From: Paenibacillus donghaensis
GTDB lineage: Bacteria; Bacillota; Bacilli; Paenibacillales; Paenibacillaceae
NCBI RefSeq assembly: GCF_002192415.1
Contig: NZ_CP021780.1
Span: 124,001 to 188,000 of the forward strand
Length of the DNA stretch: 64,000 bases
Direction of reading: 5' to 3'
The translations under genes and the position numbers were made by a program. The notes under the pieces are model-generated. The model was not told the origin of the DNA. It saw only the letters and a list, made by a program, of their open reading frames with translations, and ran no database searches. Shown here piece by piece: positions 21,254 through 57,469 of the stretch (position 1 is its first letter; the number at the start of each line of letters is the position of its first letter).

Positions 21254-21350
21254 GTCGCTCCCTGTGCGGGAACGTGGATTGAAACAGCCAACCATTTATA
21301 AATCAGTTTAGCGCCTCTAGTCGCTCCCTGTGCGGGAGCCGTGGATTGAG
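21254..21350 (+). CRISPR. Relic CRISPR array, two repeats, one spacer
   Basis: Repeat 1 is 21254-21285 (GTCGCTCCCTGTGCGGG ... GATTGAAAC, 32 bases). The spacer is 21286-21319 (34 bases). Repeat 2 starts at 21320, has an extra base in the stem and loses its 3-prime end. The repeat is of type I-C kind. No cas genes are nearby. Confidence 0.8.
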
Positions 21351-21444
21351 CAGGATTTTTTGTTCAAAACCAGCTTACTTCCTGGGTCTTGGTATGAAGA
21401 GAAACATCGAAAACTCGCTCTGTGGTGGCGTTATAAGTATGAAT

Positions 21445-21692
21445 CATTAATTAGTTGTGAAACTGCATCTAAATGACGGTTTTTTCCTATTTTGGAGGAA
21501 ATAGATGCGAAAAGGCACCTAATTTGGGCGTTTGAGCGTAAGAGGCTTGATTTACTCGAAATTAGTTGCAGATTCGCACTTAAACACCTGTTGGCTCACG
21601 ATCTGGCTGAAATTAGTTGCACTTTCGCATCTAATTGCTTCGAATGTTTCATGACAGTATTTTAACTCCTCGGATGGGACTTAAGTAGCAAC
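21445..21692. repeat. Intergenic repeat, inverted partner of 18727-18984
   Basis: It contains GGAGGAAATAGATGCGAAAA, ATTTACTCGAAATTAGTTGC and iterated TTAGTTGCA motifs, ending with CTTAAGTAGCAAC at 21680-21692. Homologous blocks lie inverted upstream of the EF-G-like gene. Confidence 0.65.
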
Positions 21693-21710
21693 TAAACTCG
21701 CAATAGGCTT

Positions 21711-21737
21711 GACACTCCCTGTGCAGTAGATTGAAAC
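21711..21737 (+). CRISPR. Single degenerate CRISPR repeat
   Basis: GACACTCCCTGTGCAGTAGA followed by TTGAAAC keeps the 3-prime half of the type I-C-like repeat, with a shortened stem. It is probably the far end of the relic array, now separated from it by the intergenic repeat. Confidence 0.5.
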
Positions 21738-21822
21738 TATTTAAAGCGAGCGAAGGATAGATTAGAATGAGGTTGTAATAGTAAGGTGCATTTATAAATA
21801 GTAGATAGGAAGGTAGATTGCT

Positions 21823-22383
21823 ATGTCGAAACCACAACTGCCGTTGCCTGAATTGAAGGAATACCTAAAAGGAACTCCCCAGCCGGAGCTAATCTCCATC
21901 ATTATGGACTGCTATAAACTTAACGATGATGTGAAAAAGTATTTTCAGCTGAAATTGCGACCGGAGGAAGCATTGAATCAGCTTTTTGAAGAGGCGAAGC
22001 GGAAGATCGCCCATGAGTTCTATCCAGAACGTGGCATGCCTAAAATGAGACTGGCACAAGCCAAAAAAGCAATCACTGAATTTAGCAAGCTTACCGATGA
22101 TTTTTCCAAGCAGATTGATCTGATGCTCTTTTACGTCGAACAGGGTGTGCAGTTCACCACAGATTATGGCGATATCGACGAAAGATTCTATAATAGTATG
22201 GAGTCCGTGTACTCTCAGCTCATCGGCAAGCTTATTGATTATGATGACATAGAGCTGTACCAAGTATTCCAAAAAAGACTAAAAGCTGCAGTCGACAATA
22301 CTTATAATTATGGTTGGGGTTTCCACGATGGCCTAATAAGTGAATATGGAGAGATCCTGGATCATTATGGGGAAGTGGAGTGA
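21823..22383 (+). CDS. DUF6155 family protein
   Basis: Hypothetical cytoplasmic protein of 186 aa, mostly helical and charged. The start MSKPQLPLPELKEYLKGTP and the core KYFQLKLRPEEALNQLFEEA resemble DUF6155 proteins, whose function is unknown to me. GGAAGG lies 10 bases before ATG 21823. It sits between a relic CRISPR array and a long array and has no obvious operon partner. Confidence 0.7.
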   Translation: MSKPQLPLPELKEYLKGTPQPELISIIMDCYKLNDDVKKYFQLKLRPEEALNQLFEEAKRKIAHEFYPERGMPKMRLAQAKKAITEFSKLTDDFSKQIDLMLFYVEQGVQFTTDYGDIDERFYNSMESVYSQLIGKLIDYDDIELYQVFQKRLKAAVDNTYNYGWGFHDGLISEYGEILDHYGEVE

Positions 22384-22508
22384 ACAAAGGTAAAGATTTA
22401 GAGATCAGTAGAAAACAGTTGAAGGTAATTGAGTTCAGATAGAAAAGTAACGTTTAGTTGGGTATAATTTGGTAACCGATATATTTCTAATGCCCTTTGC
22501 AATTTTCT

Positions 22509-22553
22509 GGTGCGAATGTATAGCTCACATGAAATCCCCGGGAGATTCGCACC
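22509..22553 (+). promoter_or_regulatory. CRISPR leader hairpin, copy 2
   Basis: GGTGCGAAT at the left and ATTCGCACC at the right form a 9-bp stem around a loop holding CACATGAAATCCCCGGGAG. It lies 126 bases before the first repeat of the array at 22679. Copies are found before every array in the window. Confidence 0.65.
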
Positions 22554-22678
22554 GAATTTATTACAGTATTTGGATTCAATGAGCCTGCTGAATGAGCATG
22601 TTGATATGATTTTGGAGAATGAAGTGATATTTCAGGCCTAAAATAGGATTTAACACCATTTTTTGGCCGGGAATCGCT

Positions 22679-23551
22679 GTCGCTCCCCGTATGGGAGTGT
22701 GGATTGAAATTCGTGCCGTGGCTACGTCAGTCAGTCGGAAATGTGGTCGCTCCCCGTATGGGAGTGTGGATTGAAATGGAGAGTACAAAAGCAATTCGAC
22801 CAAGACCGTGTGTCGCTCCCCGTATGGGAGTGTGGATTGAAATAATCATTATGGCTAACGTTAAATATACAGATTTTGTCGCTCCCCGTATGGGAGTGTG
22901 GATTGAAATCTCACAGGGGGGTTGATCGTTTTCAACCCGGATGGTCGCTCCCCGTATGGGAGTGTGGATTGAAATGTCCTGTCAAGCAGCAGCTCCTTGA
23001 TATAGTCGTCGTCGCTCCCCGTATGGGAGTGTGGATTGAAATACATAAGGGTTACCGCTGCCGTCAAACTTAAGGTGTCGCTCCCCGTATGGGAGTGTGG
23101 ATTGAAATATAGTTGGGCTGGTGGGCGGCAAATGTCCCGAACTGGTCGCTCCCCGTATGGGAGTGTGGATTGAAATGAAGGAGAATATGCAGTTGTTGAA
23201 TTTGACGGACAGTCGCTCCCCGTGCGGGAGCGTGGATTGAAACCCGTTGTTCGGCGTGGATTACACTTGGCAGTTGTGTCGCTCCCCGTGCGGGAGCGTG
23301 GATTGAAATTGCTATCGTGTCAACAATGGTCGGGATATCAAGCAGTCGCTCCCCCTACGGGAGTGTGGATTGAAATCGTTTTTGGCAATAAGAAAATAAG
23401 CCCCCCTGCCCTGTCACTCCCCGTACGGGAGTGTGGTTTGGTAGAAAATCACTTTCGCTCCCCATGCGGGAGCGTGGATTGAAATCAGGCCGACAGTTTC
23501 GGACGGATGGGCCAGTTTTGTCGCTCCCCCTGTGGGAGCATGGATTGAAAC
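22679..23551 (+). CRISPR. CRISPR array, type I-C-like repeat, 14 repeats
   Basis: Repeats of 32 bases start at 22679, 22746, 22812, 22878, 22944, 23011, 23077, 23145, 23212, 23278, 23345, 23413, about 23453 and 23520. Spacers are about 34-36 bases. The first eight read CTCCCCGTATGGGAGTG in the stem; from the ninth the stem is CGTGCGGGAGCG, and the last four are increasingly altered. That polarity, with the AT-rich leader at 22510-22678 on the left, implies transcription to the right and ageing toward the right. No cas genes are in the window. Confidence 0.95.
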
Positions 23552-23612
23552 AGACAGGGTGTAACTTTCAAGTATTGTTATATAGTATTTTAGGCGAGAG
23601 GACCAAGATAAT

Positions 23613-23661
23613 AAAAAGCACCGAATTTCCGCTTAGTCAGCAGAAATTCAGTGCTTTTTTT
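23613..23661. terminator. Bidirectional terminator
   Basis: AAAAAGCACCGAATTTC and GAAATTCAGTGCTTTTT form a long stem with flanking A and T tracts. It separates the array from the convergent XRE gene. Confidence 0.85.
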
Positions 23662-23673
23662 CACAATCTCAGT

Positions 23674-23907
23674 TTATTCCTTGCGGCGTACATCGAACAA
23701 ATCGTTAGGACTGACTTCAAAGTAGAGACATAACTTCATTATCAGTTCCGCTGAAATTCTCTTCTTTTCCATATTGGTGTTATGCATTAATTCCATGATC
23801 GTTGATCTTCTGTGCCCAATCTCTTTGGACAATTTTAATACAGATATACCACGCTCTTTTAATATTGTGTCCAAGTTGCAGTAAAGAGTGTAATCGTTAA
23901 ATTCCAT
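23674..23907 (-). CDS. XRE/Cro family HTH regulator
   Basis: Small DNA-binding protein of 77 aa starting at ATG 23907, where GGAGG lies 7 bases upstream on the minus strand. The HTH is LDTILKERGISVLKLSKEIG followed by RRSTIMELMH, and LCLYFEVSPNDLFDVRRKE is the usual tail of single-domain Xre repressors. It is divergent from a 50-codon gene, with an 18-bp inverted repeat between them that is a likely operator, so self-regulation is plausible. The palindrome starts within a copy of the TTAGTTGCA-type motif found in nearby repeats. Confidence 0.85.
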   Translation of the reverse strand: MEFNDYTLYCNLDTILKERGISVLKLSKEIGHRRSTIMELMHNTNMEKKRISAELIMKLCLYFEVSPNDLFDVRRKE

Positions 23908-23933
23908 GGTGCTCCTCCGGAAATTAGAATTAG

Positions 23934-23994
23934 TTGCACTTTTAAAGTTCATATAGTATATTGTTGATGTAGATGTTGAACTTTAAACGTGCAA
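23934..23994. promoter_or_regulatory. Inverted repeat, likely operator between divergent genes
   Basis: TTGCACTTTTAAAGTTCA (23934-23951) and TGAACTTTAAACGTGCAA (23977-23994) match in 17 of 18 positions as an inverted repeat. The 25-base centre ATATAGTATATTG... is AT-rich and could hold the -10 boxes. Confidence 0.6.
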
Positions 23995-24064
23995 TTTAGA
24001 TGTGAGAATTTTGTTGGTACGCTCTTACAAATATCCTAGAGAGCAAACAAACGGAGGAAGCCAT

Positions 24065-24217
24065 ATGTCCAAACGTCGCCCTCGCAAACTTAATACTCAA
24101 GCTATTCTTGATATCACAAAAAAGAATTTGGTCTGGCCGGAATTAGACGAATCACAGGATGCAATACATTACTATCATCTCACTGATGCGCTCGGACGTA
24201 AATGGCAAACCACTTAA
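24065..24217 (+). CDS. Small hypothetical protein, 50 aa
   Basis: Begins at ATG 24065 with CGGAGGA about 7 bases upstream. The N-terminus is very basic (MSKRRPRKLNTQ) and the C-terminal half acidic-aromatic (DAIHYYHLTDALGRKWQTT). No family is recognised. It is divergent from the XRE gene across a strong palindrome and ends before a terminator at 24322, so a two-gene cassette is plausible. Confidence 0.55.
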   Translation: MSKRRPRKLNTQAILDITKKNLVWPELDESQDAIHYYHLTDALGRKWQTT

Positions 24218-24321
24218 TTGAAGCTATAGAAAAAGCAGAGAGGGCGCAAGGGATAACAAAGGTGCTTGAATGAGATATCTATCGTACCAGCACACCTTTC
24301 CTCATAAAAAGAATTACATAG

Positions 24322-24356
24322 TAAAAACGACCGAGCCATGGCTTGGTCGTTTTTGC
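24322..24356. terminator. Terminator after small gene
   Basis: AAAAACGACCGAGCC and GGCTTGGTCGTTTTT form a stem with a very short loop and a T-tract. Confidence 0.8.
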
Positions 24357-24359
24357 TTG

Positions 24360-24794
24360 CCCTAATATATAGCCGAAGTATTGATTTGAGTGTAATGCTA
24401 TAACAAATAAAGTGGCAATTTTTTCGTCTCCGTAACTGGTATGGAGTGTTTTTTTGGAACAGACGCTCGACGAAAAGTGGAACTTGCTGTTGATTCCGGA
24501 TTCAAGGCTTGCAGCATGAGCAGTTCGATGCTTATCATAGACATTTTGAGCGAGTTTAGCGGTTGAATATAACTTTCGTTTTGGATGACCGTCCCTGATA
24601 TTTTATCACATCCTTGATCATCGGCGATATCTGGGCAACATTGCTCCAAAAGTATCTATCAATAGAAATTTTGAGAAGGAAACTGTTGTTAGTGGAAGGG
24701 TACTATTTGCCTGATACGAAATGGAGTACAATAGATGGTGTAGCTTGTTGCAATTGAGAAAAAGAATTTTGGCTTGAACGAGCTTTAACTAAGT
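24360..24794. other. Non-coding or decayed stretch
   Basis: No supportable gene. A minus-strand frame at 24398-24649 lacks a ribosome binding site and a recognisable domain. Plus-strand fragments are broken by stops and look like decayed coding DNA of unknown origin. Confidence 0.4.
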
Positions 24795-24839
24795 GGTGCG
24801 AATGTATAGCGCACATGAAATCCCCGGGTCCTTCGCACC
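24795..24839 (+). promoter_or_regulatory. CRISPR leader hairpin, copy 3
   Basis: GGTGCGAAT ... CTTCGCACC stem with the loop core CACATGAAATCCCCGGG, 116 bases before the first repeat of the 25-repeat array. Confidence 0.65.
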
Positions 24840-24954
24840 AGATTTATTACATTATTTGTATGATTGTTGGATATGTTAGCCTATGTATTTAAGAATTAAG
24901 TGATTTTCCGACTCATTAAAAGGGTTTTTATCCTATTTTTAGTCGAAAATCGCA

Positions 24955-26576
24955 GTCGCTCCCTATGCGGGAGCGTGGATTGAAATCGTATGCTTCCAAT
25001 GATTTTGATAGCCGCGAAGGCCGTCGCTCCCTATGCGGGAGCGTGGATTGAAATCCCGATCGCTTCATCATCCAACATGATGCCATAGTCGCTCCCTATG
25101 CGGGAGCGTGGATTGAAATTCTTCCTGGATGCCGTTGCGCGTGTACTTGGAGTCGCTCCCTATGCGGGAGCGTGGATTGAAATAATAATGTAAAGCGAAT
25201 TTGAACGATAAAATGTTCGTCGCTCCCTATGCGGGAGCGTGGATTGAAATTTTGAGTTATGGATGAATTAAAGGCTAAACTCCGTCGCTCCCTATGCGGG
25301 AGCGTGGATTGAAATCAATAAACTCCATCGTTCTTACGTTGTTTGCTCCTGTCGCTCCCTATGCGGGAGCGTGGATTGAAATTATCCGAACCCGCTGCTA
25401 CCCGGTGGGAACATGCGTCGCTCCCTATGCGGGAGCGTGGATTGAAATGTAAAGACTGAGCACGAAAAAATCAAGCTCTTGCGTCGCTCCCTATGCGGGA
25501 GCGTGGATTGAAATGGAAGTACGATGTTCGGCACACCAACAACTACGGGGTCGCTCCCTATGCGGGAGCGTGGATTGAAATTTGTCTAGGTTATTGATAT
25601 CGTCCAAGGCCAGCACGTCGCTCCCTATGCGGGAGCGTGGATTGAAATCTCCTTGTGAGCCGGCTCCAGATATTCCGCATCTACGTCGCTCCCTATGCGG
25701 GAGCGTGGATTGAAATGGTAATAGCATTTATGCATCAGATATTGTGCAGAACGTCGCTCCCTATGCGGGAGCGTGGATTGAAATTTAAGTGCTAAGAGTA
25801 AAGAGTCCTTTTCAAGTGTCGCTCCCTATGCGGGAGCGTGGATTGAAATTGCGATATCCGCACGCAATGACTCTTCGTGGTACGTCGCTCCCTATGCGGG
25901 AGCGTGGATTGAAATATGATGATCTTTACCATTGTGAGTGGTTTGTTGAAGTCGCTCCCTATGCGGGAGCGTGGATTGAAATAACTTAATGGTGTGCCCG
26001 GCATGTGCTGGCTGGTCGCTCCCTATGCGGGAGCGTGGATTGAAATATAGGTTCCAGAATCGTTAACTTTAAAGATGGAGTCGCTCCCTATGCGGGAGCG
26101 TGGATTGAAATGAGGATGGTAGGATTGCAATAAGCTTAGATAGAGATTGTCGCTCCCTATGCGGGAGCGTGGATTTGAATATTACCGTTTGCATCCAATA
26201 ATGGAAGATATACGTCGCTCCCTATGCGGGAGCGTGGATTGAAATACCTGAATGACCTCATTACTAATTACAAACTCAGGTCGCTCCCTATGCGGGAGCG
26301 TGGATTGAAATAAATCTGCGTGTGTCTTGCCGCCTCCCGTCCCCTGTCGCTCCCTATGCGGGAGCGTGGATTGAAATCGGAATCATGGTCAGCAAGCATG
26401 ATGCAAATTAAGTCGCTCCCTATGCGGGAGCGTGGATTGAAATATCCAGCATGACGCCGTATGAAATGATGTACGCCAGTCGCTCCCTATGCGGGAGCGT
26501 GGATTGAAATACCAAATGAATTAGATAAGAATTGACCAGTCTCAGTCGCTCCCTACACGGGAGCGTGGAATGAAAT
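24955..26576 (+). CRISPR. CRISPR array, type I-C-like repeat, 25 repeats
   Basis: Repeats of 32 bases (GTCGCTCCCTATGCGGGAGC ... GATTGAAAT) start at 24955, 25023, 25088, 25152, 25219, 25284, 25351, 25417, 25483, 25550, 25617, 25685, 25753, 25818, 25884, 25951, 26015, 26080, 26149, 26214, 26280, 26346, 26412, 26479 and 26545. The 24 spacers are mostly 32-37 bases. Nearly all repeats are identical; the one at 26149 has GGATTTGAAT and the last is altered in loop and tail, marking the old end. The leader is on the left. This is the best preserved array. No cas genes are in the window. Confidence 0.97.
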
Positions 26577-26660
26577 ACCTGCTATGTCTCGCATCCGCTG
26601 TTCACGGAACAGTCAGCAGCCACGCTAGATTCCACTCTCTCACGCAGAATCGCCGAACGC

Positions 26661-26701
26661 AAAAAAGCACAGTGCACCCAAGGGGCAACTGTGCTTTTTT
26701 C
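26661..26701. terminator. Bidirectional terminator
   Basis: AAAAAAGCACAGTGC and GCAACTGTGCTTTTTT form a stem between the end of the array and the convergent Fic gene. Confidence 0.85.
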
Positions 26702-26724
26702 AACCTCCACCTAATCCCCTAATA

Positions 26725-27879
26725 CTAATCCACAATACAAACAGAATATTCCCCGCGCCCGTCGGCTGGCTGGATGACACCTAGCTCTTTGAGCTTGGCA
26801 ATGTTTTTGGCTATGCTGGAGGGCGAGGCATCGAGGGTGTTGTCGAACAGCTCTCTGTGAAAAATCTCCCCATCCTTCATCGTGCTGATCAGCTCGAACA
26901 TCGTTCTGGCATGGCCTTTGCCCAACAGCTCGCGAATATGTTTGATCCTGTCGTACCGCTGCAACTCCTTCAGAACTTTAGTGAGCGACGCATTCACACA
27001 CTCCAGGTAGAACACGATAAAGGGCTTCAAATCTCCTTGCGTCGCCGCCATCAGCGTATCGTAATAATCCTCAATATTCTTGTCGAAGAACTCTTCCACA
27101 CTAAAAGCATCCTTAATTGTAGCCAGATCCTTGTGGATCAATCCAACCAATGTAGAAAACGCGCGGGCCGTCCTTCCGTTCCCATCCGGAAAAGGATGAA
27201 CATAACCGATCAAATGATGAGTAATGCCGGAGATGATCAGCGGGTGTATTTTTTTGTCCGAATTAGAGACGGTAGTTTCATAAGGATTAGGGTAGCCAGT
27301 GACACTGGTGTACAGCCAGTTGAAATACGCCAGCATCAGACGCGGAACCTCGGTAAAAGCTGGAGGCTGGTAGCTCACATGACCATCCCCATCATGCAGC
27401 GCCACGGGAATGGTTCGGTAGCCGTCCGGGTAGCCGGTCAAATCATTCATCAGCAGCTGTTGGATTTTCTTAAGCACGGGTTCATCCATATCCGAGAAAT
27501 CATGCTTAGGGTCTAAACTATAAATGTACCCGTAGGCTTCAAAAACGTTTTTGACCTCAATCTGCGCCTTCTGCTTAATGGTGAGCGGATTTTTTTTGTA
27601 ATCCTGAAATACCTGCTCTACCTCTTTGTATTCCAGTTTGTTTTGTTCAATCTTGGTGGTGAAATGTGCGGTTCGCACGAGCGAGTTGCGCAGAATGGTG
27701 GGCTTTAGGGGGTGGCTTTTGAGACCCAGTCTTGCGAGTGCACCTATGTTTCTCTCGGCCTCAAGAATGAGCTGGTAGATTTCATAATCGAAAGGATTTA
27801 GATTCGGTTGAAAAACCAGTCTGTTCTCCACAGTGTCGAAATGTTTGTAGCAGAATGAATAAGTCAAAGAGTACACCAC
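26725..27879 (-). CDS. Fic family protein
   Basis: Fic-domain enzyme of 384 aa, expected to transfer AMP or a related group to a target protein. The signature HPFPDGNGRTAR near residue 240 is complete, with catalytic His. An N-terminal segment TTKIEQNKLEYKEV near residue 75 aligns with the inhibitory (S/T)xxxE(G/N) helix, but Gln replaces Gly/Asn. A C-terminal winged-helix region (SSIAKNIAKLKELGVIQ) follows, typical of class II Fic proteins that regulate themselves. The start is GTG 27879 after AAAGGTG. It lies alone among CRISPR arrays. Targets are unknown. Confidence 0.9.
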   Translation of the reverse strand: MVYSLTYSFCYKHFDTVENRLVFQPNLNPFDYEIYQLILEAERNIGALARLGLKSHPLKPTILRNSLVRTAHFTTKIEQNKLEYKEVEQVFQDYKKNPLTIKQKAQIEVKNVFEAYGYIYSLDPKHDFSDMDEPVLKKIQQLLMNDLTGYPDGYRTIPVALHDGDGHVSYQPPAFTEVPRLMLAYFNWLYTSVTGYPNPYETTVSNSDKKIHPLIISGITHHLIGYVHPFPDGNGRTARAFSTLVGLIHKDLATIKDAFSVEEFFDKNIEDYYDTLMAATQGDLKPFIVFYLECVNASLTKVLKELQRYDRIKHIRELLGKGHARTMFELISTMKDGEIFHRELFDNTLDASPSSIAKNIAKLKELGVIQPADGRGEYSVCIVD

Positions 27880-28089
27880 CTTTTACATGAATAAATACTG
27901 ATAAATCAATGTTTCATAGATAATATTAGTATATGTCGTTACACTTATTATGTACATATTATATGATAGTTAAACGAATAAGCAAAAGTGAGAGGCAGAA
28001 GCGTGTATGGATTTCATTGGGAGGTTCGTATCGCTTGAAGCAGAAGGGTTTGGGTTTGATGTGGAGAATGTAATAGAGGAGCAATTACA

Positions 28090-28126
28090 GGTGCGAATGT
28101 GAAGCGCACATGAAATCCTGGGGAAG
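28090..28126 (+). promoter_or_regulatory. CRISPR leader hairpin fragment, copy 4
   Basis: GGTGCGAATGTGAAGCGCAC and ATGAAATCC match the left arm and loop of the leader element. The right arm is missing and a small membrane-protein gene starts 17 bases later, so this is a truncated copy. Confidence 0.55.
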
Positions 28127-28142
28127 GAGTTGTTATTGAATA

Positions 28143-28412
28143 ATGTCAACGTTCTTAATCACTCTTATTATTAGTGGATTCTTTGGAATTTTTGCTCTTT
28201 CTGCCCTTGGTTTGGTTGTTCTGATTTCTAAAAAATCTAAGCATCCCGTGAAAAGTATGTTAACCATGTTTTTAGGGATTGTGTTCTTAAGTTGGTTCGT
28301 TCTTGGGATTAATACATACATGACTCACGGTTCCTTGAAGAACTTTATCTTCTTTACCGTAATTACGATTGTGATTATATCTGCTATGAAATTTAGATTG
28401 AAACGTATTTAA
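28143..28412 (+). CDS. Small membrane protein, 89 aa
   Basis: Three hydrophobic segments (residues about 3-27, 38-56 and 66-80) joined by short basic loops, ending KFRLKRI. GGAAGGAG lies upstream of ATG 28143 at a somewhat long distance. No family is recognised. Its upstream region is a truncated CRISPR leader element, suggesting insertion or rearrangement. Confidence 0.6.
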   Translation: MSTFLITLIISGFFGIFALSALGLVVLISKKSKHPVKSMLTMFLGIVFLSWFVLGINTYMTHGSLKNFIFFTVITIVIISAMKFRLKRI

Positions 28413-28518
28413 AAGAATATACGTGTAACAGCCAACACAGCTGAAGGCAAGGGAGTCCAAATAGAAAAACATGTTTAATTGGACAGGCGATATATAGCTA
28501 ATACCCTTGCAATTTACA

Positions 28519-28560
28519 GGTGCGAATGTATAGCTCACATGAAATCGCCGGGAGATTCGT
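28519..28560 (+). promoter_or_regulatory. CRISPR leader hairpin, copy 5
   Basis: GGTGCGAAT on the left and GGGAGATTCG on the right, with the right arm cut short. The following sequence to 28637 matches the leader of the 22679 array. Confidence 0.6.
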
Positions 28561-28637
28561 TGATTTGGTTTTGGAGAATGAAGTGATATTTTAGACCTAG
28601 AATAGGGTTTAACTCCTTTTTTTGGGTGAAAATCGCT

Positions 28638-28666
28638 GTCGCTCCCCGTGTGGGAGCGTGGATTGA
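28638..28666 (+). CRISPR. Solitary CRISPR repeat with a leader
   Basis: GTCGCTCCCCGTGTGGGAGC and GTGGATTGA: a single repeat lacking its last three bases, directly behind a leader copy. It is a collapsed or nascent array with no spacer. Confidence 0.75.
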
Positions 28667-28777
28667 TGCCTAAGGAGGGACCGTTGTATAAAAGTTTCAG
28701 CGATCAGCCTGAGTCTGGCTTTAGATACAAACCGACATGTTATAATAATGGTAATTATTTAACTGGAGGTGTCCAAG

Positions 28778-29035
28778 ATGCGATGGGATGAAGTTAAGGA
28801 ACGATTTCCCAATGAATGGGTTGTTCTTGAGGCAACCAGAGCCTATTCCCGAGAAGGCCAACGTTTTATTGAAGAGATGGCTGTGATAGATTCCTATGAG
28901 GACTCGAGCGAGGCTTTAAAACGGTACAGTGAATTGCACCGGAAGGACCCGCACCGTGAATATTGTTTTTTTCATACCTCTCGTCCAGTGGTCGTGGCAC
29001 GCGAGCGATATGTAGGAATTAGAGGGCCAAGATGA
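28778..29035 (+). CDS. Small hypothetical protein paired with retropepsin-like gene
   Basis: Cytoplasmic protein of about 85 aa beginning MRWDEVKERFPNEWVVLEA; GGAGG lies about 10 bases before ATG 28778, and GTG 28769 is an alternative. A TATAAT -10-like box is at 28741-28746. The family is not named with confidence, but such proteins occur next to retropepsin-like genes. The stop overlaps the next start by 4 bases (ATGA), so the two are co-translated and may work together. Confidence 0.75.
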   Translation: MRWDEVKERFPNEWVVLEATRAYSREGQRFIEEMAVIDSYEDSSEALKRYSELHRKDPHREYCFFHTSRPVVVARERYVGIRGPR

Positions 29036-29418
29036 ACATTACAGAAAAGTATGGGCTTCCTTTTGTGAGCATGAGAGTAGTGTTTAGGGGAAGAGAGTTA
29101 CAATTGGAGAAGGTGCTGCTTGACACTGGTTCTGCTAGCACTCTTTTGAATGCGGATGTGGTACAAGCAATAGGCATGGTCCCTGAAGAAAATGATACTG
29201 TTGATATGATACGGGGCGTAGGTGGTGTAGAATATGTGTACACTAAGTGTCTGGACTCTATTATAGTGGGTGAATCAATGTTAAAGGAGTTTCAAGTCGA
29301 AATCGGAAACATGGATTATGGCATGGATATCGATGCTATTCTTGGCTTTAACTTCTTGAAACAAGCAAAGACTGTGATTGACGTCAAAGCAATGGAATTG
29401 AAAACGGGAGCTTGCTAA
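29032..29418 (+). CDS. Retropepsin-like aspartic protease
   Basis: Single-domain aspartyl protease of 128 aa. LLDTGSASTLLN near residue 30 is the catalytic DTG(S) motif, followed by a flap-like VDMIRGVGGVEYVY and the DAILGFNFLK segment typical of bacterial retropepsin homologues. One active-site Asp per chain implies a homodimer. It has no signal or membrane segment. It overlaps the upstream small gene by 4 bases. Substrate unknown; in other bacteria such pairs are scattered accessory genes. Confidence 0.82.
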   Translation: MNITEKYGLPFVSMRVVFRGRELQLEKVLLDTGSASTLLNADVVQAIGMVPEENDTVDMIRGVGGVEYVYTKCLDSIIVGESMLKEFQVEIGNMDYGMDIDAILGFNFLKQAKTVIDVKAMELKTGAC

Positions 29419-29589
29419 AGGACTGTTTCTTACAATTGCAGCGGGGTTGAGCTCGAACCTTTCTCTAGCAGCCAGTTTGTTTTTTTGTGCTTGATATAGA
29501 AGAATATGAATATGTTGCGGAGAATGCATAAATAGAAGAGGAACCAACGGCGCGAATGTGGTCACACAATCAAGTAGATGGGCTAAAAA

Positions 29590-29633
29590 GTGCGAACCTC
29601 AAGCGCACATGAAATCCCCGGGAGGTTCGCACC
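29590..29633 (+). promoter_or_regulatory. CRISPR leader hairpin, copy 6
   Basis: GTGCGAACC and GGTTCGCAC pair around a loop with CACATGAAATCCCCGGGA. A further GAGGTTCGCAC follows near 29700 and could pair alternatively. It lies 125 bases before the first repeat of the interrupted array. Confidence 0.65.
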
Positions 29634-29757
29634 CTATATGTTACAAGGGTTCATGGCATATTGCGCGTTAAAGTAAAGACAAGTTACAATGAGATTCGTG
29701 AGGTTCGCACTTTTGGCTCTTCCAGCCCTTGTCCTGTAAGGGTTGTTTTGGGTACCT

Positions 29758-30456
<699 letters not shown>

Positions 30457-30472
30457 ACTACAGTTGTGGAAA

Positions 30473-30554
30473 GAAAATAAAGTAATGGACTGGAAAATAA
30501 AGTGTTAGACTCGGAAAATAAAGTTGTAGACTGAGAAAATAAAGTATTAGACTG
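30473..30554. repeat. Left end repeats (TnsB-site-like), four abutting copies
   Basis: Copies start at 30473, 30493, 30514 and 30535; consensus GAAAATAAAGTNNTAGACTG. The spacing of 20, 21 and 21 bases places them on the same helix face about two turns apart. Confidence 0.85.
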
Positions 30555-30682
30555 TTGCTCCTCATTAAGCTAACGGGCAGGATAGTTTAATAACATATCG
30601 AATGTTGAAGCTTGGAAAGGAATACGACGTGAGGTATTTGCTAAACTGAGTGAGGTAGAAGTACTTAAAAAGGAGGTACCAG

Positions 30683-31615
30683 ATGGAAACTAATCAAACT
30701 ATTCGACTGGCAATCGAAGAATCTATACAGTTTCTTGAATTTGCACCGCATTTTACGATGGCTCACGGCGAGTGCACTCGTCGAAAATGGGATGGAGTTT
30801 GGTGGCATATGGCTGCTCTTTATGAAATGGGAGAGGTGAAACGGATCCCCCAGTCCGCTATTGAAAGAGCTAAACATCTACTCAAAACCCAGGTCTGGCC
30901 AACTTTTATTATATCCGCCAATGACCATCCAACAAGTGAAAGTGATAAGATGAAGATGGATTGCTGCCATTGTGAACTTGCCGTGTACTATATGATTCTA
31001 ATGGCGTATGGTTGTGATTTGGACAAGGAACTACCTTGGATTCGTGAATGGCTCTTAAAGCATCAGCTACCTGATGGTGGACTGAACTGCGATCCTGAAG
31101 CTTATACTCATTCTAAAAAAAGCTCTATTGTTTCAACATTGCCTCCGCTTGAAGCTATCTTATGGCATACTGACCGTGAATTTACTGAACAGGAAGCTGT
31201 TTTCTTAGACGAAGGTGCACGTTATTTAATTGAACATCGTCTTGTATGTTCTAAACAAAATGGGGACGTCATCGATATGGAATGGCTGAAGCCTTGCTTT
31301 CCAAGGTTTTTTGAATATGATATTTTGCGCGGCATGTCATTCTTGGCAGAATGGTCCCGGCGTAGGAACAAACTGCTACCGGTCTGGCTGTTTAGAGAAG
31401 GATTGGAACGCTTGAATACATCTATGATAGCAGAAGGCTTACAAGTCGGTAGACAAGTGTTTGATCCCCAAGGCCCGTGGGGTGGACAAACCTTTTCCTT
31501 GTTAGAAGCAACGGCTGGTATTGGTGTCGTTTCGCCTTATCTAACCAGACAATTGGATCGAGTGTTCGAACGAATGGGCCCGGAATATACCTCAAGACTT
31601 CCTTTAGATAATTGA
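30683..31615 (+). CDS. Prenyltransferase/terpene-cyclase-like alpha/alpha-toroid protein
   Basis: Cytoplasmic protein of 310 aa, cargo of the Tn7-like element. AAAGGAGG lies about 8 bases before ATG 30683. The repeating helical pattern with WLLKHQLPDGGLNC and STLPPLEAILWH resembles (alpha/alpha) toroid proteins of the prenyltransferase/squalene-cyclase superfamily. KMDCCHCELAVYYM near residue 94 could bind metal. The DxDD motif of class II cyclases is not evident, so catalysis is uncertain. It is the only complete protein gene of the element besides the intron protein. Confidence 0.65.
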   Translation: METNQTIRLAIEESIQFLEFAPHFTMAHGECTRRKWDGVWWHMAALYEMGEVKRIPQSAIERAKHLLKTQVWPTFIISANDHPTSESDKMKMDCCHCELAVYYMILMAYGCDLDKELPWIREWLLKHQLPDGGLNCDPEAYTHSKKSSIVSTLPPLEAILWHTDREFTEQEAVFLDEGARYLIEHRLVCSKQNGDVIDMEWLKPCFPRFFEYDILRGMSFLAEWSRRRNKLLPVWLFREGLERLNTSMIAEGLQVGRQVFDPQGPWGGQTFSLLEATAGIGVVSPYLTRQLDRVFERMGPEYTSRLPLDN

Positions 31616-31727
31616 TCTGGTCGAAAGGGTAAGGACCAGGTCGAAGAATGCTTAAAAATTTCAAATATTTAAATGACTTGTCTAATTAAGCTCCCATGGA
31701 AGAACGGAATTACTTCCCTCATCTGTG

Positions 31728-34417
31728 GTGCGTCGCTTGCGCTGCATGCATGGCTAACGGGAAAGTATGACAAGTTCTGTATAAGCACTACATAGTGCGA
31801 AAAACAGGGGATTCAAAGTCTCATAGAATCCTAACTTTACAACCGAGGATGGGAATGACGGAACCATGTATCCCGAAACCATCCCACCAATACTCCTGCA
31901 TGCGTCATGACTGACAGGTTATGGGGTTTGAAGTACAGGTAGATTCGGCAGAACAAAGGCTAGAGCCATTCGAATAGAAAAGGTATGCTGACGGATATGC
32001 CGCGTGGCTGAAAAGCTGGATATGGTGAGAATGTTCATAGAAAAGAACTGACGAACTTCCGAATGTACAGGTCTATAGTTAGAGCATAAGGAAACTTATG
32101 TACCATCCTACGATGGGGTGAGTGGCGTAAAGTAAAAATTTTCCCTATGAAATACGCTATGCCAAACTAAGGAGGCATCCTGCTCACAGGCCCAGAGGAA
32201 GCACCTAAGTCCAGAACAAAAAAAAAAAAAAAGGCTAGGTTGTAAGGGACTTGGAAAGCAAGGCACGTCGCAACAAGGGCTGTTACCCAAGACGGTTGCA
32301 ATAAGGCACGGGCCGAAATGCATTAAGCTTTGTGAGGGCAGGGGCACGACTGATGAATCTCCTGTAATGGGAGTGGAAGAACAGCCCCAAGTCTAACAGA
32401 TAAGAACGATCATTTTCCAAACGTGAATTGCGCCGGTCGGGTAAGAATGTGGGAACATCACCTCAAAAGGATTGATGCCACAGTGCAAGCTTTGCGAAAT
32501 TGGGAGTACTACGGCATGACGGAACCTTTCACAGATTTGCACGAAAGAGCTGGCAATCATGAATCTTTCTCGCATCTCTACGATCTAATCACATCTAGAG
32601 AAAATATTCGGCTGGCTTATCGAACAATGAAATCGAATAAAGGATCAAAGACGCCAGGAACAGATGGAAAAACCATCACAGACATTGAAAAATCGTCCGA
32701 AGATGAACTAGTAAGTGAAATCCAAAACAATCTAAAATGGTATCGCCCTAAGAAAGTCAGACGGGAATTTATAGAAAAAGACAACGGAAAATGGCGACCG
32801 CTCGGCATTCCTTGTATACTGGATCGAATCATTCAGCAATGCTTCAAGCAAGTGCTTGAACCCATAGCTGAGGCTCATTTCTACAAACATAGTTATGGTT
32901 TCAGACCACTACGGTCTACACACCACGCGATGGCAAGAATACAATTTCTTGTGAATCGGGCACAAATGCACTATGTGGTAGATATCGACATCATGGGGTT
33001 CTTCGACAATGTGAATCACACGTTGCTATTGAAGCAGCTATGGAACATGGGGATTCAGGATAGAAAGGTGTTAGCGTGCATCTCCAAGATGCTGAAAGCA
33101 GAAATCGATGGATAAGGTATACCTACAAAGGGTGTACCTCAAGGGGGTCTGTTGTCGACATTACTTTCAAATGTCGTCCTCAATGACTTGGATCATTGGG
33201 TGGCTGGTCAATGGGAATTCTTCCCCCTGACTCAACCTCACAAGACAAGAAGTGGTGAATTGTATACGAAAAATCGCACTTCCCTCAAAGAAGGATATAT
33301 GGTGCGTTACGCCGATGACTTCAAAATCATCTGTCGAGACTACAAGACTGCCTACAAGTGGTATCATGCTGTCGTTTCCTATTTAAAATATCGTCTGAAA
33401 CTGGAAGTTTCGCCAGAGAAATCGCAAATTGTAAATTTACGAAAGCGAGAATCTGAATTTCTAGGATTCACGATCCGAGCGAATGTAAAGGGTGAAAAGA
33501 GAGTAGCGCATACAGGCATTAGAAATAACAAAAAGCAGAAGATCAAGATGGAAGCCAAAAAGCGCATTCAGAAGTTGAGATCGTCTCCAATTGCCCTAAA
33601 TGCAGCACTCTTTAATAGCTTTGTTTTGGGAATCCACAACTACTTCAGTCGGGCAACCCATGTCAGTGTTGAGTTCTCACGTCTTGCCTATGACCTGCGA
33701 GCCTTCATGTATAATCGTCTGAAACAAATCGGGAAATACGAACATCCTACTAACCCGCCACCAACATACAACAAATTCTACAGCAGGGGTTACAGAACGT
33801 TCAAAGTAGCAGGTGTATACTTATATCCTCTTGCCAACGTGAAAACAAAGAACACGATGAACTTCAGTCAAAGTCTTTCACTTTATACAACGGCAGGAAG
33901 AGAACAAATATACAAAAAGCTTCGTCCGGATATACGTCAAGAAATACTTTCTTTGATGGAATCCAGCATCCCGAGCCAGAGTGTGGAGTATATGGATAAT
34001 CGTATAAGTCGGTACAGTATGAAGATGGGGAAATGCGAAATCACAGGGATGTATCTTTTCGCATCAGACGTCTACTGTCACCACTATATGCCATTATATC
34101 TCGGTGGAAGCGACAAATTCAACAATCTGCGCATTCTCCACAAAGAGGTATATGAGCTTATCCACCATACTCACAAAGAGACGATCGAAGTACTCATAAA
34201 TAGACGGGGTATCACTGACTTGATGAAAATCAAAATCAATCAGTACCGTAATAAATACGGACTAGAACCAGTCTAACCTTCCCAAATCTATGAGTAACGA
34301 GGAACTTATGATCTAGTACATTTTGTTAGAGGGAACGCGGAGTGCGGGGAAACTCGCACGCTCCGTGTGGAGCAGGGGAAAAGCTGGAGATCGTATCAAA
34401 GGCTTACCTATTGCTAC
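31728..34417 (+). mobile_element. Group II intron with HNH-type intron protein
   Basis: The 5-prime end is GTGCG at 31728. Near the 3-prime end, a domain V-like hairpin (GCGGAGTGCGGGGAAACTCG, from about 34336) is followed by a domain VI-like stem (AGCAGGGG pairing CCTATTGCT) with a candidate branch A at 34410 and a terminal AC at 34417. The 2.7-kb length fits an intron whose protein has an endonuclease domain. It lies inside the Tn7-like element, downstream of the toroid gene. Ends are good to a few bases. Confidence 0.75.
32423..34276 (+). pseudogene. Group II intron reverse transcriptase/maturase, in-frame stop
   Basis: The intron-encoded protein reads through RT motifs (KWRPLGIPCILDRIIQQ, SYGFRPLRSTHHAM, DIDIMGFFDNV), then meets TAA at 33113-33115. 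The same frame continues immediately with GIPTKGVPQGGLLSTLLSNV and the catalytic YADD (VRYADDFKIIC), maturase domain X and a C-terminal HNH domain (CEITG ... CHHYMPLYLGGSDKFNNLRI). A single-base change would explain the stop. As written, the RT is cut before its active site, so the intron is probably not self-mobile. Confidence 0.88.
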
Positions 34418-34440
34418 CGTTAGTTCAATAAAACTGTGGC

Positions 34441-34584
34441 AGTCTAGGACTTTATTTTCTCGTCCCGGGCTGCCGCTGTCTTTTTTTGTTGGGGTCAGTC
34501 TAATACTTATTTTATAGAATCTGTTGGTTTTTAAAATTAAAAAACCGATTGGAGCAGCATATCTAGTCTAATACTTTATTTTCT
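34441..34584. repeat. Right end repeats (TnsB-site-like), three dispersed copies
   Basis: Inverted copies of the left-end repeat at 34441-34460, 34497-34516 and 34565-34584 (AGTCTAATACTTTATTTTCT type), spaced 56 and 68 bases apart. Confidence 0.8.
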
Positions 34585-34624
34585 TCTGACAACAGTAAAC
34601 ATCTGGTTTGATACACTAGAGAAG

Positions 34625-34918
34625 GTCGCTCCCCGTGCGGGAGCGTGGATTGAAACACGCCATTATCGTTACTCTTGCAGTTAAGTTGTAGTCGCTCCCC
34701 GTACGGAAGCGTGGATTGAAACAAATGTGTTGTCCGCTCTTTGGCCGTACTTGATGGTCGCTCCCCGTGAGGGAGCATGGATTGAAACAATGCCAAGGAT
34801 ATCTCAAAGGTATTGGGCAAGGGTCGCTCCCGCATGGGGAGCGTGGATTGAACCACGCAAGAATACATGGCTGGACAGATGAAGGTGGCGCTCCCCCATA
34901 CGGGAGCCCGGATTCCAT
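34625..34918 (+). CRISPR. CRISPR array, distal part, 5 repeats decaying
   Basis: Continuation of the array beyond the Tn7-like element. Repeats start at 34625, 34691, 34757, 34823 and about 34887; they lose stem symmetry step by step (CGTACGGAAGC, CGTGAGGGAGCATGG, CGCATGGGGAGC, CCATACGGGAGCCCGG). Removing the element and one ACAGT copy joins 30457-30464 to 34597-34624 as one 36-base spacer. Confidence 0.93.
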
Positions 34919-53767: not shown

Positions 53768-54335
53768 TTTTTTTGTGCGCCCAGCATGGGCGCTATCTAT
53801 AGGGTGAAAGTCCCGAATGGTGAAGGCAGTAGTAGCCATTAGCTTAAGACAAGGGTGTCCAACGTGAGGTGGAATCTGAAGGAAGTCGGCGGCAAACCTC
53901 CGGTTCGAGGAACACGAATCTCATATCAGGCTAACGTTCATTGGATGAGACTGCATAACAAGTTAAAGTCCTTACTGCCGAAGATGAACGGAAGTAAATG
54001 AGGCGAATAGATGGAGGGAAAGATAGCGTTCTTACCTGGGGAGATCTGTGCGAAACACGAAGACAACTTTGTAACCCTGTTCGTGAGGACAGGCTGAACG
54101 CACAGAAGTCAGCAGACGTCATAGTACGCAAGCTGTTGCAATAGCTGCGGAAGGACCGAACATGAAATAGGTATTTGTACATCCAGGCGTTCAAGATGAG
54201 TAATGAAAGCAGAATATCCGAAAGGAACTGACTGAAGAAGGAAGCGGTGAATTCCGTGTGGGGCTTCGGCAGGGCAGAATTCATCTCTGGCACAAGAGGA
54301 AAGTACAAATCACGTAAAGAGAGGTATATAAAAAA

Positions 54336-55598
54336 ATGTTGGAGCAGTTACTGTCACGGGAAAATCTTCTACAAGCGTTAAAGCGTGTGGAAGCCAATAA
54401 AGGAAGCCATGGCGTAGATGGGATGTCCGTAAAATCCTTACGAGAACACATCGTACACAACTGGCAATCCTTACGGCAAGCGATAGAAGAAGGAACCTAC
54501 CAACCTAGCCCCGTGCGTCGGGTCGAAATCCCGAAACCGAATGGCGGAGGTGTCAGGAAGTTAGGAATTCCTACCGTGACCGACCGAATGCTACAGCAAG
54601 CCATCGCCCAGGTGTTAACCCCATTGTTCGATCCACAGTTTTCCGAGCACAGTTATGGATTTCGCCCCAAAAGGCGGGGACATGATGCCGTAAGGGAAGC
54701 AAGAGGATTCATGAAAGAAGGATACCGATTTGTAGTCGACCTGGACTTGGAGAAATTCTTTGATCGCGTCAACCATGACCGTCTAATGCTGAAGATTTCG
54801 GAGAAAGTGAAGGACAAGAAAGTCCTTTTACTTATTCGTAAATACCTTCAATCGGGCGTGATGGAGAACGGGTTAGTTCAACCGACACTAGAAGGAGCAC
54901 CGCAAGGGGGTCCTTTGAGTCCGTTATTATCTAACATTGTACTGGACGAGTTGGACAAGGAATTAGAGAAACGTGGACACCACTTCGTCCGCTATGCGGA
55001 TGACTGTAATATCTACGTGAAAACGCCAAGAGCAGGCGAACGAGTCAAGACATCCGTCACCCGATTCATCGAGACAAGGCTAAAACTCAAGGTGAACCAA
55101 GGAAAGAGTGCAGTAGACCGACCCTGGAAACGGAAATTTCTTGGGTTTAGTTTTAGTGTGGACAAAGAGCCGAAGGTGAGAATAGCGAAGCAGTCCTTAC
55201 AGAAAGCGAAGGTCAGAATTCGAGAGATCACGTCTCGAAAGAAACCGATGAAGATGGAAGAGCGAATCAAGGAACTAAACCAATACCTAATGGGATGGTG
55301 CGGGTACTTCTCGCTAGCGGATACACCAAGTGTTCTTCAAGACATGGATAAATGGGTACGAAGAAGGCTACGAATGTGCCTTTGGAAGCAATGGAAGAAC
55401 CCGAGAACCAAAGTCAAAAGGCTACTATCCTTAGGCATGCCTAAGAATAAAGCCTATGAATGGGGAAATACCCGAAAAGGGTATTGGCGAATAGCAGGAA
55501 GTCCAATTTTGTCACGAGCATTGAATAACCAATACTGGGAATCCAATGGACTCAAGAGCTTATTGGACAGATACAACTCACTACGGAATATTTCATGA
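54336..55598 (+). CDS. ltrA: Group II intron reverse transcriptase/maturase (outer)
   Basis: Intron-encoded protein of 420 aa. RT blocks include VEIPKPNGGGVRKLGIPTVT, SYGFRPKRRGHDAV, DLDLEKFFDRVNHD, GAPQGGPLSPLLSNI and the catalytic YADD (FVRYADDCNIY). A maturase domain X follows; there is no endonuclease domain, as in class C proteins. GAGAGG precedes ATG 54336. The stop codon touches domain V of the intron. The reading frame is complete. Confidence 0.94.
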   Translation: MLEQLLSRENLLQALKRVEANKGSHGVDGMSVKSLREHIVHNWQSLRQAIEEGTYQPSPVRRVEIPKPNGGGVRKLGIPTVTDRMLQQAIAQVLTPLFDPQFSEHSYGFRPKRRGHDAVREARGFMKEGYRFVVDLDLEKFFDRVNHDRLMLKISEKVKDKKVLLLIRKYLQSGVMENGLVQPTLEGAPQGGPLSPLLSNIVLDELDKELEKRGHHFVRYADDCNIYVKTPRAGERVKTSVTRFIETRLKLKVNQGKSAVDRPWKRKFLGFSFSVDKEPKVRIAKQSLQKAKVRIREITSRKKPMKMEERIKELNQYLMGWCGYFSLADTPSVLQDMDKWVRRRLRMCLWKQWKNPRTKVKRLLSLGMPKNKAYEWGNTRKGYWRIAGSPILSRALNNQYWESNGLKSLLDRYNSLRNIS

Positions 55599-55632
55599 AC
55601 CGCCGTATACCGAACGGTACGTACGGTGGTGG

Positions 55633-57469
55633 TGTGCTGTGAAAGTTGCGTCAGAGATGAGGAAGGCCCCTCGACGGGGATCGAGTCAGGCGAACCCGTC
55701 AAACAACCCTAAGCTGCTGCAATTAAGAGTTGTGGTAGTGAGCGTCTAGGGAAAAGGTTGCCACAAGCAATCATGTGGGATATGCAAAGATGAACGAAAG
55801 TGAACTGCCGATGAAGTATCGATAACGTAAAGCTTTGTCAAAACCTGTTGTTCACCACTAGACAGGGATAAGAGCAGAAGTAGACCTGAAGGCTGACTGC
55901 TCGGCAAACGGTATTAAGGCAGCATGAGTGCATATCAGGCTCTGATGTGAAACACAGGAACCTGCATCACGATAGTAAGTGAAAAGACACAAGTCACAGA
56001 AAGACGAGGTCGAAATAGCAAAGCGTGATGCAGGGGCGGAGGTACCCGTAATAGTAATGAAGTTGCTGTAATGGCAATGGAGCGAAGGGGTACCATCATT
56101 CAGCTCGAAGCAGAGAACAACTGTTGTAACAGGAGGATTCGATGAAAGAGGGCAAGCCATTTGACATTTCAAAGCAAGTTGTTATGACAGCATTTAAGAG
56201 AGTCAAAGCGAATAAGGGAAGCGCAGGGATTGACGGTCTGGACATAAAGGATTTTGAAAAAGACCTCAAAGGAAACTTGTATAAGATCTGGAACAGAATG
56301 AGTTCCGGAAGTTATTTCCCTCCACCGGTTAAATTGGTCGAGATTCCAAAGAAATCAGGTGGAACAAGAGGACTCGGCATTCCGACAGTCGGGGATAGAG
56401 TGGCCCAAATGGTAGTTAAAATGTATATAGAGCCGCGAGTAGAGGCTATATTCCATACAGACTCTTATGGATACCGTCCAAACAAGTCAGCTATCGATGC
56501 AATAGGTCAAGCGAGGAAAAGGTGCTGGAGAAATGATTATGTCTTAGAATTTGACATCAAAGGTCTATTTGACAATATCGATCATGAATTATTAATGCGT
56601 GCAGTGCGAAAGCACATAAGCGAATCATGGATACTGATGTATATCGAAAGATGGCTCAACGCACCGTTCATAAATTCAGAAGGTCAATGGATTGAACGCA
56701 AAAGCGGAACCCCTCAGGGTGGTGTCATCAGTCCTGTACTTGCGAATCTGTTTATGCATTACGCTTTTGACTTGTGGATGAAACGAACAAATCCAAATGC
56801 ACCGTTTGAAAGATATGCAGATGATGCCATTATCCACTGCAGAACGCAAGCAGAAGCAGAAGAGATTCTGGAAAAACTCAAGAAACGACTAGAGGAATGC
56901 AAGCTTGAATTGCATCCAACGAAAACCAAGATTGTATACTGCAAGGATAAGGACAGAGTGAAGGAGTTTCCAGTCACCGATTTTGAGTTTTTGGGATATA
57001 CCTTTCGGAGGGTGTTCATAAAAGACAGACTAGGGAGGTTGCAGTTCAACTTCCTACCATCGGTGAGTGTGAAATCAGCCAAAGCATTCAGAGACAAGAT
57101 AAAAGCGATGCGAATTCATAGCTATACCGGTAGTAAAATTGAAATGATCGCTGAAATGCTATCTCCGATGGTCAGAGGTTGGCTTAACTACTTCACGAAA
57201 TTCAATCCATCAGCAGTAAAGTATACCATTGACTGTCTAAATCGCAGATTGGTCAAATGGGCAATGTGTAAATACAAGAGGTTCAGGGGACATCGCAGTC
57301 GAGCGGAAAAATGGCTGAAAGAACTTGCAAAAAGAGAGCCCAATATGTTTCCACATTGGGCTCTCGGAATGAAACCATAACTGGCTGAATGATAAGAGCC
57401 GTATGAATCGAGAGGTTCACGTACGGTTCTGTGAGAGCCTGAAGGTGAAACTCCTTTGGGCTACTCGAC
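55633..57469 (+). mobile_element. Inner group II intron of a twintron
   Basis: Starts GTGTGCTGTGAAAG at 55633 and ends CTACTCGAC at 57469. Its domain V is 57396-57429 (GAGCCGTATG ... GTACGGTTC), with a domain VI stem GAGCCTGAAGG/CTCCTTTGGGCT after it. It interrupts the outer intron one base after domain V. Removing it joins GTACGGTGGTG to TGAGAGGTCGGGGG, the normal class C domain V-VI junction. 1,837 bases. Confidence 0.87.
56142..57380 (+). CDS. ltrA: Group II intron reverse transcriptase/maturase (inner)
   Basis: Intron-encoded protein of 412 aa belonging to a different lineage from the outer one. RT blocks are VEIPKKSGGTRGLGIPTVGD, SYGYRPNKSAIDAIGQA, FDIKGLFDNIDHELL, GTPQGGVISPVLANL and YADD (FERYADDAIIH); maturase domain X ends with MVRGWLNYFTKFNPSA. 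No HNH domain. CAGGAGG lies upstream of ATG 56142. The frame is complete, so the inner intron may be active. Confidence 0.94.
   Translation: MKEGKPFDISKQVVMTAFKRVKANKGSAGIDGLDIKDFEKDLKGNLYKIWNRMSSGSYFPPPVKLVEIPKKSGGTRGLGIPTVGDRVAQMVVKMYIEPRVEAIFHTDSYGYRPNKSAIDAIGQARKRCWRNDYVLEFDIKGLFDNIDHELLMRAVRKHISESWILMYIERWLNAPFINSEGQWIERKSGTPQGGVISPVLANLFMHYAFDLWMKRTNPNAPFERYADDAIIHCRTQAEAEEILEKLKKRLEECKLELHPTKTKIVYCKDKDRVKEFPVTDFEFLGYTFRRVFIKDRLGRLQFNFLPSVSVKSAKAFRDKIKAMRIHSYTGSKIEMIAEMLSPMVRGWLNYFTKFNPSAVKYTIDCLNRRLVKWAMCKYKRFRGHRSRAEKWLKELAKREPNMFPHWALGMKP

Follow-up and report, generated by a model that had tools for sequence, protein, structure and literature searches.

The stretch examined here, 64,000 nt of contig NZ_CP021780.1 of Paenibacillus donghaensis (the window, to which coordinates refer unless stated otherwise; labels beginning with G denote genomes and those beginning with L fetched loci), contains a 4,127-bp element at 30465–34591 that starts with TGT, finishes with ACA and lies inside a spacer of a CRISPR (clustered regularly interspaced short palindromic repeats) array. 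A first-pass annotation had read it as a Tn7-like element without tns genes, bounded by TGT...ACA termini and a 5-bp duplication of ACAGT, and both termini and duplication are borne out to the base. The features that define its two ends, named R and L after the right and left ends of Tn7, are the following:

30460..30464, no strand: target-site duplication, left copy (ACAGT)
30465..30472, + strand: R-end terminus, 8 bp, TGTGGAAA
30473..30491, + strand: R-end TnsB-like site 1
30493..30511, + strand: R-end TnsB-like site 2
30514..30532, + strand: R-end TnsB-like site 3
30535..30553, + strand: R-end TnsB-like site 4
30565..30590, + strand: palindromic motif TTAAGCTAACGGGCAGGATAGTTTAA, within which homology to Paenibacillus algorifonticola begins
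34434..34480, - strand: terminator-like hairpin of the L end, whose loop holds TnsB-like site 3 (limits approximate, by eye)
34441..34459, - strand: L-end TnsB-like site 3
34497..34515, - strand: L-end TnsB-like site 2, degenerate
34565..34583, - strand: L-end TnsB-like site 1
34584..34591, - strand: L-end terminus, 8 bp, TGTCAGAA read inward
34592..34596, no strand: target-site duplication, right copy (ACAGT)

The end repeat GAAAATAAAGTNNTAGACT has seven matches at up to three mismatches in the window, where 0.09 would be expected; six of them lie in the ends of the element, and the seventh (48391, three mismatches) lies outside. The left, R-like end carries four abutting sites starting at element positions 9/29/50/71, and the right, L-like end three spaced sites starting at 9/77/133 from the right terminus, as the annotation had described (four abutting repeats at one end, three dispersed at the other). 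The same spacing is found in the tns-bearing elements of genomes G032 and G123, each of which has one extra R site. As had also been noted, the contents are one protein gene and a group II intron, represented by an intact open reading frame (ORF) of 310 amino acids (aa) and by Rfam intron matches; no tns gene was matched inside by tblastn at 1e-5. By content the element is thus not autonomous, having no match to tnsA, tnsB, tnsC or a target selector, all of which are matched in G032, G105 and G123.

These three tns-bearing relatives, from other Paenibacillus species, measure 18.5–19.5 kb, match TnsA through TnsE and share both the end architecture and the 5-bp duplications, which supports the earlier description of the focal element as Tn7-like and cargo-only, one that would have to move in trans. 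All three have L-end sites at 9/77/132–133 and four to five abutting R sites; in G032, the five abutting R sites stand directly before tnsA. Pfam models identified in G032 both TnsA domains, Mu-transpos_C (TnsB), TniB/AAA (TnsC), TniQ together with TnsD, and TnsE_C, the last with 35.6 bits against a cut-off of 26.7. The ORFs of G123 match those of G032 in size, and G105, with a shorter TnsA ORF and with TnsB and TnsE in pieces, may have decayed. In all three, 24–26 bp separate the R end from the stop codon of a gene whose product ends in ...NLAKSVTVE, which we take to be the C-terminus of glmS; an R end just past a glmS-like stop codon is the attTn7 arrangement. Between tnsE and the L end, G032, G105 and G123 carry genes resembling type I restriction-modification systems (by eye; one G032 ORF was Pfam-checked).

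We put at roughly 85% the probability that the focal element is a natural mini-Tn7, that is, a cargo-only, non-autonomous element with the ends of glmS-located TnsABCDE-type Paenibacillus elements, moved by a helper into the spacer. Read from the sequence, this interpretation is carried by the end architecture, the duplication, the lack of a tns match inside and the tns-bearing relatives with the same ends. Tn7 is known for carrying its own engine. The focal element shares with Tn7 and glmS-targeting Tn7-like (TnsABCDE) elements the TGT...ACA termini, the 5-bp duplication, and three spaced L and at least four abutting R sites; in contrast to them, it has no tns match, lies away from glmS and consists, in 4.1 kb, of one ordinary gene and an intron. 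The 5-bp duplication and TGT ends could also be attributed to another transposon group, since Tn5053/Tn402-like elements likewise have TnsB-like transposases and 5-bp duplications. However, the relatives with matching ends possess TnsA, TnsD and TnsE domains and adjoin glmS, which makes an origin in that group extremely unlikely; nor did any Tn5053/Tn402-like helper with these ends come to light. According to a review, 5-bp duplications occur in all Tn7 relatives (PMC11406308).

The annotation had proposed to look elsewhere for copies with the same ends and duplications, and such copies exist. The end repeat occurs at up to one mismatch in 76 of 100 relatives, and the full layout, TGT plus five bases plus the repeat (TGT exactly 8 bp outside the repeat, no mismatches), in 65 of 100 Paenibacillus genomes; the reversed control of this layout gave no match in the 100. 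The 8.54-Mb P. donghaensis genome holds 32 repeats at up to two mismatches against three for the control, and among the stretches fetched around these repeats, both termini plus a duplication were found for the focal element alone. Loci were then fetched around ends and around TniQ genes, left and right ends were paired, and an exact 5-bp duplication was required. This was found in 16 of 38 pairs of a first set and in 23 of 47 pairs in total, compared with about 0.05 expected by chance (47/1024, by hand). The 23 elements comprise the three with TnsA, B, C, D and E matches and 20 without a tns match, the focal one included. A megablast search of plasmids with the element returned six records; in one the match, at 74%, covers the group II intron, and in the other five it is confined to 1–3% of the element, in one end.

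The 20 tns-less elements with exact duplications reside in 19 genomes, P. donghaensis included, span 0.5–7.3 kb and occupy scattered sites. ORFs were listed for 13 of them; one has no ORF of at least 90 aa, and the remainder carry mostly ordinary-looking genes; FabZ, checked by a library search, is one of the products, and others, named by eye, include an acetyltransferase, transporters, regulators and a YidC-like protein. Of the 20 elements, 15 have L sites at 9/76–78/130–133, seven have four abutting R sites and 14 have two or more.

The motif TTCATTAAGCTAACGGGCAGG, into which the focal R end runs on with one mismatch, follows an end with up to five mismatches in 12/20 tns-less elements (up to two in seven), compared with at least eight in the three tns-bearing elements. 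In addition, the hairpin arm GACTGCCGCTGTT accompanies the third L site with up to two mismatches in 12/20 tns-less and in none of the three tns-bearing elements; G032 has a 1-mismatch copy of this arm beside its first site. Judged in this way, inner boundaries are common among tns-less elements, not universal. They bear on whether the focal element arose in situ, by internal deletion of a full Tn7-like element, or arrived already tns-less. One element does look like such a deletion product, namely L108 (G085), which retains tns-type inner R-end sequence resembling that of G032. However, the focal R end has the inner motif of the tns-less elements instead, and the three tns-bearing elements are located at glmS, not at this site, so that deletion in place appears unlikely for the focal element.

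The landing site is a CRISPR array that continues on both sides of the element:

29758..30456, + strand: CRISPR array left of the element, 32-nt repeat GTCGCTCCCCGTGCGGGAGCGTGGATTGAAAC
34625..34918, + strand: remainder of the same CRISPR array, repeats decaying toward the far end

Excising the element together with one ACAGT restores a spacer of 8 + 28 = 36 nt between two 32-nt repeats, in agreement with the earlier claim that joining the flanks yields a 36-base spacer; repeat spacings of 65–68 in the same array correspond to spacers of 33–36 nt. A phage search for the protospacer of the rejoined spacer gave nothing significant (best E 0.4). The array is one of a series at 21254–34788, whose repeats fall mainly into two variants (...CCGTGCGGG... 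and ...CTATGCGGG...), and several arrays of this repeat type exist in the genome. Searches for Cas1 and Csd1, the cas genes sought, gave no match in this genome; Cas1 was matched in nine of 14 control genomes and Csd1 in only one of 14. Because neither was matched, the arrays of the window are probably orphan, and the interrupted one looks abandoned.

An insertion within a spacer had led the annotation to hint at a CRISPR-related targeting mechanism, in which the element or its helper would pick arrays via a guide RNA or the array structure. A second observation could be taken the same way: an array of 10 repeats GTCACTCCCCGTGCGGGAGTGTGGATTGAAAT, related to the repeat of the window array, lies at 6544169–6544796 of the same genome between an R-like and an L-like Tn7 end repeat (C1:6542945–6548122; L050 4946–10123). 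However, these ends have no TGT/ACA termini sharing a duplication. Regular repeats outside the ends were flagged at 3/138 distinct ends (each with at least 200 bp of flank), and these proved to be the focal CRISPR array, a 51-bp tandem repeat and another repeat family (flags L284 and L271 were examined), so that a CRISPR array borders 1/138 distinct ends, the focal one. On this count the hint is unsupported; as no cas gene was seen in the element either, and neither Cas1 nor Csd1 was matched in the genome, we regard CRISPR-directed insertion as very unlikely. CRISPR-associated transposons (CASTs) share with the focal element Tn7-like ends and CRISPR sequence nearby; they differ in that here the array is target rather than cargo, and neither a cas effector nor tniQ was seen in the element, whose ORFs are the cargo gene and maturase pieces, without a TniQ match. 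Most likely, the CRISPR landing was incidental, a matter of chance; no special mechanism is needed, because an abandoned array is neutral ground and this is one such landing among many insertions.

How the natural mini-Tn7 elements choose their targets was approached from their chromosomal positions. Mobile DNA generally gathers near replication termini. Tn7 is described as reaching glmS through TnsD and replicating DNA through TnsE (PMC11406308), and chromosomal TnsE insertions are described as oriented non-randomly and most frequent toward the terminus (PMC5371812). Ends were placed relative to dnaA in 25 genomes with complete or nearly complete chromosomes, the set comprising the listed main-chromosome ends together with two tns loci and the window; glmS-flagged ends were excluded from the terminus and orientation tests, and so was L099 of G016, which has the same flanks as L098 at both contig ends and probably duplicates it. 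Among non-glmS ends, 32/56 lie in the quarter nearest the terminus, or 31/54 (p 6e-7) after merging, which removed a second end each from G102 and G121. The R end faces the origin in 29 of 39 typed ends (p 0.003; 19 of 58 rows, untyped or glmS-flagged, being excluded), and in 27/37 (p 0.008) after merging. For the elements with exact duplications, nine of 15 are near the terminus (p 0.004); among those that could be typed, 12 of 13 share the common orientation (p 0.003), as does the focal element. The terminus enrichment is therefore clear, and the orientation bias is moderate, being weaker by local skew. This enrichment, together with the preferred orientation, suggests target choice through a TnsE-like replication-directed pathway, which we slightly favour on evidence that is moderate, suggestive and not proof.

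P. donghaensis itself has one tns locus (6,181,304–6,191,232 of the genome) with tnsA, tnsC and a TnsD-like gene as open ORFs with Pfam matches. In the proposed sequence of events, a helper in the same cell would excise the tns-less element, its TnsAB acting in trans, and would insert it, with a 5-bp stagger, into a spacer of the apparently abandoned array; the target would be chosen through the TnsE-like pathway, and the spacer would presumably be struck by chance. Separately, L126 (G052) represents a second Tn7-like lineage, with TnsA and TnsC at about 50% and TnsB pieces at 41–44% identity to the tns proteins of P. donghaensis; in front of its tnsA stand end repeats of this same type, including two that are separated by 1.17 kb.

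A number of observations weigh against the natural mini-Tn7 interpretation or its parts. Concerning the ends, the L spacing is missing in 5/20 tns-less elements and 6/20 have a single R site, and among the tns-bearing relatives just G032 and G123 look intact. Concerning the helper, the tnsB of the P. donghaensis locus is split into two pieces in different frames, a transposase-like ORF interrupts its first tniQ, and end repeats around this locus were looked for and not found. No TnsE match was obtained in this genome, in a search that gave no match in any control genome either. The TniQ search, which covered 12 of the 19 genomes with tns-less exact-duplication elements, gave no match in eight of the 12, and because of this, helpers seem to be transient, or past. 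Concerning targeting, the orientation count by local GC skew is 26/36 (p 0.011; rows beyond 0.02 skew), and that for exact-duplication elements, to which this cut-off was not applied, just 9/13 (p 0.27); for 42 of 58 rows, local skew points to the same replichore as the one assumed from dnaA. Elements of the same genome are non-independent, the terminus and orientation statistics were computed without a matched control of other mobile DNA, which gathers near termini as stated above, and the focal element itself lies at 0.38 of the origin–terminus distance, away from the terminus.

A wider proposal would be that natural mini-Tn7 cassettes are found genus-wide with conserved inner boundaries (the R-end palindrome and an L-end hairpin holding the third TnsB site), have host genes swapped in and out, and owe their spread in trans, via the replication-directed TnsE pathway, to TnsABCDE elements that either reside in the cell or visit it. 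We advance this tentatively, as a possibility we would rate somewhat below even odds. If it is true, the positions of the cassettes would document, in nature, how TnsE has targeted DNA over evolutionary time. The scattered insertions may provide natural data on TnsE-type targeting outside E. coli Tn7, for which, according to a review, there is no mechanistic information (PMC11406308).

Miniature inverted-repeat transposable elements (MITEs), mobile insertion cassettes and insertion-sequence derivatives are known non-autonomous elements. With these and with the Tn3-derived inverted-repeat miniature elements (TIMEs; PMC4133298), the focal element shares the reduction to ends only, the absence of a transposase gene and the possible presence of other genes; it differs in that its ends, its duplication and its likely helper are of the Tn7 type and the ends are asymmetric and multi-site. 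Known ends, no transposase and duplicated flanks are found together in several copies, namely the 20 tns-less elements in 19 genomes. Among the elements delimited here, these outnumber the tns-bearing ones 20 to 3, which is not a census, as the fetched stretches favour short elements. Ends of the Tn7 type would thus serve to move genes on a small scale within a large genus. Literature searches, limited to open-licence papers, found no description of tns-less Tn7-like cassettes, whose absence from print is thereby unproven, and none of transposons inside CRISPR spacers. A survey of 6,549 Tn7-like transposons sought ends around transposase genes (PMC8649781), and because of this an engine-less class would escape it. 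Non-autonomous derivatives of transposons are known as such; what we rate as new here is the cargo-only Tn7-like cassette.

The gene carried by the focal element is its sole intact ORF:

30683..31615, + strand: cargo gene, 310-aa protein of unassigned function

It has no Pfam match and no NCBIfam match. The annotation had called the product an alpha/alpha-toroid protein, a fold that is not confirmed; it is supported by source names, some of the best 120 of 363 homologues (E <= 0.001) being named "prenyltransferase/squalene oxidase repeat-containing", and by weak geranylgeranyl-transferase-beta matches in the PDB (E 0.9–1.0), where the best matches by E-value are short fucose-binding lectin alignments (from E 4e-7). 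The same best 120 of 363 are mainly Bacillales where named, and the gene is common in that order. Its loci elsewhere number 37 (34 from GTDB and three others; L058 and L148 at least look like one locus). The possibility that the gene was ancestral between two arrays was rejected, since none of the 37 has a CRISPR array in its fetched flanks; flags at L150 (low complexity) and L153 (52-bp tandem repeat) were discounted by eye. Paired Tn7-like ends surround a cargo relative in none of the 34 GTDB loci, L141 having two stray repeats.

The closest DNA relative of the cargo locus is in P. algorifonticola, with 98.2% identity over 1,126 bp (30570–31695); this homology starts within the palindromic motif after the R-end repeats and stops 58 bp before the P. 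algorifonticola contig end. The P. algorifonticola copy is without Tn7-like ends (L137 6880–6910 compared with 30565–30600). The start of homology inside the motif may be a junction of cargo capture.

The remainder of the element is occupied by the intron:

31754..34423, + strand: group II intron unit, near-identical in three copies of the P. donghaensis genome
32423..33115, + strand: maturase/reverse transcriptase (RT) ORF, 5' part, ending at an in-frame TAA
33152..34276, + strand: maturase/RT ORF, 3' part

Rfam group II intron matches lie at 31830–32014 and 34333–34417, the intron proper probably starts from GTGCG at 31795, and the in-frame TAA is at 33113–33115. Two further near-identical copies exist in the genome (L172, L173), and a CTAAC(A/G)G motif precedes all three copies, behaving as if it were the intron target. 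Because of these additional copies and their shared motif, the intron is probably a passenger in its own right. Elsewhere in the window, at 53858–57469 downstream of two tRNAs, several group II intron signatures occur with two RT ORFs and a single 3'-domain match, and these introns are possibly nested or truncated.

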